A stretch of 64,000 nucleotides of DNA from assembly GCA_945868475.1 (NCBI GenBank), contig CAMBLM010000001.1:248001-312000 (forward strand). The letters run 5' to 3'. A program made the position numbers and the translations under genes. The notes beneath the pieces are model-generated. The model had not been told where the DNA came from and did not search any database. It saw nothing but the letters and a program-made list of their open reading frames with translations. This DNA is from an uncultured Ruminococcus sp. (lineage in GTDB: Bacteria > Bacillota > Clostridia > Oscillospirales > Ruminococcaceae). Positions 25,862 to 46,286 of the stretch are shown piece by piece (within the stretch, counting starts at the first letter, position 1; the number at the start of each line of letters is the position of its first letter).

Positions 25862-25870
25862 TGTTATAAT
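25862..25870 (+). promoter_or_regulatory. Extended -10 promoter of the M16-lgt-folD operon
   Basis: TGTTATAAT (TG-N-TATAAT) with no clear -35 box (TGGTAT at the right distance). It is followed by about 230 bases of non-coding leader before the first peptidase gene. Confidence 0.55.
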
Positions 25871-25893: not shown

Positions 25894-25935
25894 AAAAGGG
25901 ACAAACTGCCAAAAAGTTTGTCAAACCTGCCTTTT
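25894..25935 (+). other. Nested stem-loop in the leader of the M16 operon
   Basis: The perfect stem GACAAACT (25900-25907) with AGTTTGTC (25915-25922) sits inside an outer stem AAAAGG (25894-25899) with CCTTTT (25930-25935). It is not followed by a T run and matches no riboswitch class that I recognise. The rest of the 334-base gap (25766-26099) holds two opposite promoters and the element described next. Confidence 0.45.
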
Positions 25936-25937
25936 AG

Positions 25938-26071
25938 TACTGATCTCTAATGAATGTGTAGAAAAAAATCGGTGCCCAAACCATATAAACCTGTTTTCAA
26001 CATCAAGCTGTTTTCAACAGCTGCAAGGTTTTTGCTTGATTTTTTGTACATATTCTGATTAGATATTAGTA
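25938..26071. mobile_element. MITE-like element, copy 1 (134 bp, imperfect terminal inverted repeats, TA-flanked)
   Basis: The left end TACTGATCTCTAAT continues into GAATGTGTAG and an A-run followed by TCGG. The reverse complement of the right end reads TACTAATATCTAATCAGAAT and continues into ATGTACAAAAAATC. The two ends align over about 35 bases with few mismatches and one small gap. Both ends carry TA, consistent with a TA target duplication. The interior has a 12-base direct repeat (25991-26002 and 26008-26019) and an inner inverted repeat AGCTGTT-TTC-AACAGCT. There is no open reading frame. It ends 28 bases before the TTG start of the next gene. Confidence 0.65.
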
Positions 26072-26099
26072 TAAATCAATTATAATTGGAGTGATATGT

Positions 26100-45603: not shown

Positions 45604-46029
45604 TCAGTCCTTTCCGCAGTAGCTTGCACAGTTGTTCGGAGTTTCATATACTGTTAAGGTTCTGACCTTGTAACCCTTGCTCTGCATTATATCGTAAAAA
45701 TATTTTGAGAAATTTTCCGCAGTCGGGCGAAAATCAACTTCGATAAGTCGGAAATTTTCATCTTTAAGAGCAGCAACGGTCGATTCTTTGAGCGAATCCT
45801 TTTCATAAATAAAAGCATGGTCAAATGAATCGGCAAGATTTTTTAAGTCATTCTTCAAGTCACCAAAATCAACAATCATTCCGCGGCGTTGACCGTCCTG
45901 AACAAGCTCGTTGCTTTCGATCTCAATTTCTATCTTCCAGCGGTGACCGTGAAGATTTGAGCATTTTCCGTCATAGCCACTCAAAAAATGTGCGCTGTCG
46001 AATGCAGCTTCGGTTTTTAAAATATACAT
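45604..46029 (-). CDS. queD: 6-carboxy-5,6,7,8-tetrahydropterin synthase
   Basis: Zinc enzyme that converts the FolE product to 6-carboxytetrahydropterin. Zinc-binding and catalytic residues are visible: the first His in FDSAHFL, Cys in GKCSNLHGH, the HXH pair, and DHAFIYE. Length of 141 residues is typical. The ATG at 46029 has AGGGAGA upstream; an upstream extension in the same frame would run into the MITE-like element and is not used. It is the first gene of the que operon, immediately downstream of the leader. Confidence 0.95.
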   Translation of the reverse strand: MYILKTEAAFDSAHFLSGYDGKCSNLHGHRWKIEIEIESNELVQDGQRRGMIVDFGDLKNDLKNLADSFDHAFIYEKDSLKESTVAALKDENFRLIEVDFRPTAENFSKYFYDIMQSKGYKVRTLTVYETPNNCASYCGKD

Positions 46030-46048: not shown

Positions 46049-46132
46049 TACTGATCTCTAAAGAATGTACAGACAAAAATCGGCGTAAACACATATATGC
46101 AAGCTTTTAATCATTCTGATTAGACATTAGTA
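46049..46132. mobile_element. MITE-like element, copy 2 (84 bp, shorter)
   Basis: The plus-strand left end TACTGATCTCTAA-GAATGTACAG and the right end, whose reverse complement reads TACTAATGTCTAATCAGAAT, match copy 1 at the same positions. The left-end sequence ACTGATCTCTAA is identical in both. The interior is about 50 bases shorter and mostly unlike copy 1 after TCGG. Both ends carry TA. It lies between the leader terminator of the que operon and the queD ribosome site. Confidence 0.65.
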
Positions 46133-46171
46133 TAAAAATATAAAAGGGCATGGCTGAACACCATACCCTTT
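46133..46171 (-). terminator. Intrinsic terminator in the leader of the que operon
   Basis: On the minus strand AAAGGGTATGG (46171-46161) pairs with CCATGCCCTTT (46153-46143). The only non-canonical pair is a U-G wobble on this strand, and it would be a mismatch on the other, so it belongs to the minus transcript. UAUAUUUUUA follows. It lies about 90 bases downstream of the promoter and would stop transcription before queD. Confidence 0.8.
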
Positions 46172-46179
46172 GATCTGCG

Positions 46180-46232
46180 GTTTATGATGTCCTGGTTTTG
46201 TTTATAGACAGGATGGCACTAACGAACTGTCT
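46180..46232 (-). promoter_or_regulatory. Candidate riboswitch aptamer upstream of queD (preQ1-like)
   Basis: On the minus strand AGACAG (46232-46227), a 15-base loop starting UUC, CUGUCU (46211-46206) and an A-rich tail AUAAACAAAACC give a hairpin plus tail like a class I preQ1 aptamer, which has a short stem, a loop beginning UUC and an A-rich tail. The pairing of the tail back to the loop is not clear here, so class is not assigned. The combination with a following terminator and a queuosine operon favours a preQ1-type switch. Confidence 0.45.
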
Positions 46233-46257
46233 TATGTCGTTTTAATATATCTATTTT

Positions 46258-46286
46258 ATTATAATATTAGTATATCGATTTGTCAA
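46258..46286 (-). promoter_or_regulatory. Perfect consensus sigma-A promoter of the que operon
   Basis: On the minus strand TTGACA (46286-46281), 17 bases, TATAAT (46263-46258). A leader of about 220 bases separates it from queD. Confidence 0.9.

Follow-up and report, generated by a model that had tools for sequence, protein, structure and literature searches.

A MITE family of a gut Ruminococcus, flanked by matched TNA triplets and very probably mobilised by an IS630-type transposase

The stretch of DNA analysed here (the window) comprises 64,000 nucleotides of contig CAMBLM010000001.1 from an uncultured Ruminococcus sp. It contains two short elements of the same family, both placed between a promoter and the first gene. 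Copy 1 precedes the M16 peptidase gene, in the leader of the M16-lgt-folD operon, and copy 2 lies in the leader of queD (45607-46029, minus strand). The features are as follows.

25865..25870, plus strand: TATAAT of a promoter-like region upstream of copy 1, kept in four same-genus genomes without the element
25935..25937, plus strand: left flanking triplet of copy 1, TAG (family norm TNA)
25938..26071, plus strand: MITE copy 1 in the M16 peptidase leader, 134 bp with type A ends and two 17-bp repeat cores
25938..25971, plus strand: left terminal inverted repeat of copy 1 (inner limit approximate)
25991..26019, plus strand: two 12-base cores CTGTTTTCAACA of the variable 17-bp repeat (25991-26002 and 26008-26019)
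26038..26071, minus strand: right terminal inverted repeat of copy 1 (inner limit approximate)
26072..26074, plus strand: right flanking triplet of copy 1, TAA
46046..46048, plus strand: left flanking triplet of copy 2, TAA
46049..46132, plus strand: MITE copy 2 in the queD leader, 84 bp with type A ends and a shortened inner right arm
46133..46135, plus strand: right flanking triplet of copy 2, TAA

The ends of copy 1 (TACTGATCTCTAATGAATGT starting at 25938 and ATTCTGATTAGATATTAGTA finishing at 26071) lie exactly where a preliminary description had placed them and are indeed imperfect inverted repeats, which base-pair from end to end of the element (fold z -5.5). The same description had seen the left end recur at 46049. 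Both ends are present there, at 46049-46068 and 46113-46132 (the left and right 20-mer patterns each have 2 matches in the window, against 0 in 100 shuffles), and since this second pair encloses 84 bp, copy 2 is complete, though shorter, and more than a left end. The 12-base direct repeat reported inside copy 1 is also real, with occurrences at 25991 and 26008 at a spacing of 17, and is part of a 17-bp unit. Like other MITEs, the elements are short, have terminal inverted repeats and lack a transposase gene. Searching the window against Rfam gave no family at gathering score.

Two further hairpins lie close to the elements. The M16 leader has a perfect hairpin, GACAAACT-GCCAAAA-AGTTTGTC, at 25900-25922, just before copy 1; it is terminator-like on the minus strand, and none was seen in the leaders of the relatives. 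The queD leader (46143-46286, minus strand), upstream of the gene, has a perfect TTGACA-17-TATAAT promoter and a block, GACAGTTCGTTAGTGCCATCCTGTC...AAAACCAGGACA, that is conserved in three same-genus genomes, where the terminator-like hairpin of this leader is also present. Copy 2 sits between this leader terminator and the gene. The leader gave a weak Rfam PreQ1 match (12 bits against the 39 needed; none in the relatives), and the block may be a divergent preQ1 riboswitch.

The preliminary description had proposed a comparison with orthologous loci lacking the element, and such loci exist for both copies. In the four same-genus genomes the promoter region of the M16 leader is kept and the element is absent, and in three relatives the queD leader keeps its terminator-like hairpin without an element between the T-run and the ribosome-binding region. 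The M16 leaders are too diverged for the exact empty site of copy 1 to be read.

We found many further copies of the ends, in the genome itself and in relatives. BLAST with copy 1 gave 58 matches in its own genome (2.55 Mb, 31 contigs), and a degenerate left-end pattern matched 119 places there, with 0 for the reversed-pattern control. A covariance model of the 100-bp form found about 145 distinct places, with ~4 matches being the same place on the reverse strand; 150 candidates were scored, so that the real total is possibly higher. Roughly 140 copies are present in this genome. BLAST also gave 19 and 21 diverged matches in two same-genus genomes, and one same-genus genome has four 100% identical copies, which points to recent movement there. 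A 106-bp query matched 11 of 148 genomes of the family, own genome counted, while the covariance model, run on 291 genomes of the class, matched at E 1e-6 in only two, the own genome and a second member of its family. Among the families sampled, diverged copies are confined to this one, where scattered genera carry them. In a named sequence collection a looser pattern identified 79 loci and the exact left-end pattern none; the relatives in this collection come from gut metagenome assemblies labelled Ruminococcus, Oscillospiraceae or Clostridia. The family combines many dispersed copies with absence from related loci, as expected of a MITE. The MITE also matches 20 records labelled 'phage'. In one of them, a human-faecal record labelled Bacteriophage sp. 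(MT835868.1; L263, 1-16135), the MITE is 95% identical and the ORFs resemble genes of a chromosome (rnf-like, folC-like); the record is therefore probably virome-derived bacterial DNA. With ordinary chromosomal-looking genes in this one record examined, carriage of the MITE by phages is unsupported.

Members of the family are 100, 117, 134 or 151 bp long, in steps of 17 bp, with 100 bp being commonest. The stepwise unit is CTGTTTTCAACATCAAG, which lies at the hairpin tip in a copy number that varies between members. One common interior is found with different ends: type A (TACTGATCTCTAATGAATGTGTAGAC), type B (TACTAATTTTTAATCAAAGTGTAGAC), type C (TACTAAACACCAATAAAACTATAGAC) and type D (TACTAAACACCATTTAAAATTTGG). 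Type A copies, including both window copies, are more diverged, and type C copies are near-identical. Mosaics of two end types exist, such as L034 (own genome, C2:160868-161022), whose left end is of type C and whose right end is of type A, a pattern that suggests recombination between copies. The arms pair over almost their entire length, with small bulges that are constant. In 13 diverged copies, 96% of the cells pair and 13 pairs are changed on both sides, values reached by 0 of 500 shuffles; the outcome was the same with 44 distinct copies. Inverted repeats that a single enzyme recognises would be expected to covary in this way, and the covariation alone is no proof of an RNA function.

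Within their own genome, copies are intergenic in 90 of the 93 cases examined, with genes taken only as non-overlapping ORFs. They are spread over 50 tandem, 28 convergent and 12 divergent gaps, and the 50 copies in tandem gaps showed no orientation bias of the kind that a regulatory role might leave (25:25). Copy 1 contains no strict terminator. Given these two results and the leaders of relatives that lack the element, the family is most simply read as selfish DNA that the host tolerates between its genes. Expression of M16-lgt-folD or queD could be affected quantitatively.

We analysed the flanks of 98 oriented copies with distinct surroundings. The three bases on either side are equal in 82 of them (shuffle mean 50, maximum 59). 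TNA stands on both sides of 89 copies, and in 82 of these the middle base is equal (mean 50, maximum 62; 10,000 shuffles); the matched pairs include 12 TGA/TGA and 8 TTA/TTA pairs with unrelated flanks. Hence the terminal TA is part of the element, and the target duplication is TNA (TAA, TGA, TTA, TCA). The preliminary description had proposed an insertion of the TA type. The TA at both ends is real, but it belongs to the element itself, and the flanking duplication is not TA. The inner bases A and T, which adjoin the element, are invariant (98/98), while the outer T is found in 92 and the outer A in 95 of the 98 copies. Mismatched copies resemble CAA/TAA or TAA/TAG, copy 1 with TAG/TAA being one such imperfect pair, and none repeats a non-TNA triplet on both sides. 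Strictly, these flanks prove duplication of the middle base alone. Some copies sit inside other copies (L003/L028, L099), and the interior of the interrupted copy has about its normal length after one TNA is removed.

An autonomous transposase with the same ends, which had been suggested as something to look for, was found by searching loci that have a left end and no right end; this led to an ORF just inside one such left end (L206). The complete autonomous element (L210, 894-2023) is 1,130 bp long with a TAA flank on each side. It shares ~30 bp of the MITE left end, whereas at the right end only the outer ~11 bp are common (compared with the type C MITE). Two ORFs overlap in its coding region: the first encodes the HTH and the second, in the -1 frame, the DDE domain, and a frameshift presumably joins them at an A AAA AAA run. 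The second ORF (ORFB) matches the NCBIfam IS630 model NF033545 with 141 bits (cut-off 100) and also Pfam DDE_3, while ORFA scores 68 bits. It retains the catalytic D, D and E, separated by 78 and 31 residues. The partner has the HTH plus DDE arrangement of an IS630-type transposase. It departs from IS630 elements in its target, since each of the four autonomous copies that retain both ends is flanked by a matching pair of triplets (TAA, TTA, TCA and TCA) instead of a 2-bp TA duplication.

Relatives of the autonomous element are present in 13 of 397 genomes of the family, and PLSDB plasmids gave no match. In the own genome assembly we found no intact copy and two damaged ones, both truncated and located in other parts of the genome than the window. 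C9 has the left end, a promoter-like sequence and the first ORF, with the second ORF truncated; C19 has the second ORF and the right end, its beginning being lost. As both cognate transposase copies are truncated, mobility in this genome has probably stopped, barring a transposase from outside. Our search found no autonomous element with the exact type A ends of the window copies, L218 and L221 being nearest. ORFs that read like an IS66-type insertion sequence (L212, 1-1240) adjoin the right-end IS630 remnant of the own genome. In L215 a MITE of the same family lies inside the transposase gene of an autonomous IS630 copy (1210-1510), and the flanks of this insertion fit TA, not TNA.

We consider it very likely that the element is a MITE that relies for its movement on a transposase acting in trans, supplied by an IS630-family insertion sequence; this link is suggested by the common ends and the common type of target. 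The non-autonomous IS630/Tc1-mariner-type element envisaged in the preliminary description is favoured alike by the copies, the insertion-free relatives and the autonomous partner. An unlikely alternative within the same family is a canonical IS630 system, in which only the terminal TA of TACT...AGTA is duplicated and the adjacent TNA reflects a target preference. It would account for the TA at both element ends, agrees with the TA duplication of bacterial IS630 elements (PMC2170065), and gains from the inner A and T being less variable than the outer bases, from the lack of mismatched copies with a repeated non-TNA triplet and from the strict proof being confined to the middle base. However, TNATATNA targets would be required, and neither the agreement of that base, TGA and TTA pairs included, nor the near-normal interior of interrupted copies after removal of one TNA is expected from a preference.

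It is very unlikely that the sequences are a domesticated repeat family controlling its neighbours as a structured RNA or regulatory leader (attenuator, terminator or RNase site). The strong hairpin, the covarying pairs and the position of both window copies between promoter and first gene would fit such a role, but with matched target duplications and an autonomous partner the hairpin is accounted for by inverted repeats, relatives have these genes and leaders without the element, and the family, which has no Rfam match in the window, is scattered over all three kinds of gap without preferred orientation. Repeats of the REP type or derived from IS200/IS605, which a single-strand (HUH) transposase moves, would likewise be palindromic, abundant and intergenic, and the left flank is almost always TAA; yet the family has long terminal inverted repeats and matched flanking duplications, and an IS630 DDE transposase sits between the same ends. 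IS200/IS605 elements are not known to make a target duplication, and we regard an origin of this kind as barely credible.

For a MITE mobilised by an IS630-family enzyme, the transposase would bind the inverted repeats, excise the element and reinsert it at a TNA, in most cases an intergenic TAA, which would yield the TNA duplication. The copies described here were probably moved by the L210-type partner. The arms may stay complementary because one enzyme must recognise both, or through conversion between them, and the length of the 17-bp array probably changes through slippage. The MITE is likely to be of no use to its host. More tentatively, and with somewhat less than even confidence, we suggest that a bacterial IS630 lineage has exchanged a TA target of 2 bp for a TNA target of 3 bp, a change in integration chemistry in a family described as uniform, with MITE arms that still pair while the end types diversify. 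One flank base was possibly taken along in this switch, as the invariant A and T beside the element would allow.

Our analysis points to a probable source and mechanism for an abundant repeat family of gut Oscillospiraceae; the literature searched contained no earlier description, no paper joining such elements with Ruminococcus and no TNA duplication for IS630 (ISfinder being outside the scope of this search). A bacterial IS630 system with an altered target could reveal how Tc1/mariner-type transposases set duplication length. It also calls for caution in annotation, as the terminal TA of an IS630-like element is not necessarily a target duplication.

MITEs that depend on IS630 are already well known. 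In Streptococcus pneumoniae, RUP (107 bp, about 110 copies) has IS630-Spn1 ends and TA targets and is proposed to be moved by IS630-Spn1 (PMC2229807, PMC3049150). Like the present family it is a tightly folded intergenic MITE of ~100 bp with paired inverted repeats, IS630-type ends and no coding capacity, but it inserts at TA-containing sites rather than at TNA, and the present family belongs to Oscillospiraceae, is unrelated in sequence as far as seen, and has a variable 17-bp array and several end types. An internal minisatellite is known from BrickBuilt, a Porphyromonas gingivalis MITE with 19 copies and a 23-nt unit (PMC4596501). Both are intergenic MITEs with an internal tandem array of variable length, and they differ in the unit and the copy number, in the small inverted-repeat ends of BrickBuilt, and in host and sequence. 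The autonomous partner resembles ISY100 and IS630, bacterial Tc1-mariner relatives, in its N-terminal HTH and C-terminal DDE and in passing the NCBIfam IS630 model, whereas those elements duplicate TA (PMC2170065) and the partner transposase is split in two overlapping frames at its A AAA AAA run. Duplications departing from TA occur in the same superfamily, where most Fot elements (eukaryotic IS630-Tc1-mariner) use TAA (PMC7386202) and the Sailor group duplicates TATA (PMC8533490), but these are eukaryotic or wider groups and their targets are not TNA with a free middle base. Hence, with relatives in the literature that duplicate TA, TAA or TATA, the TNA duplication is the departure that sets this lineage apart within a known kind of element.
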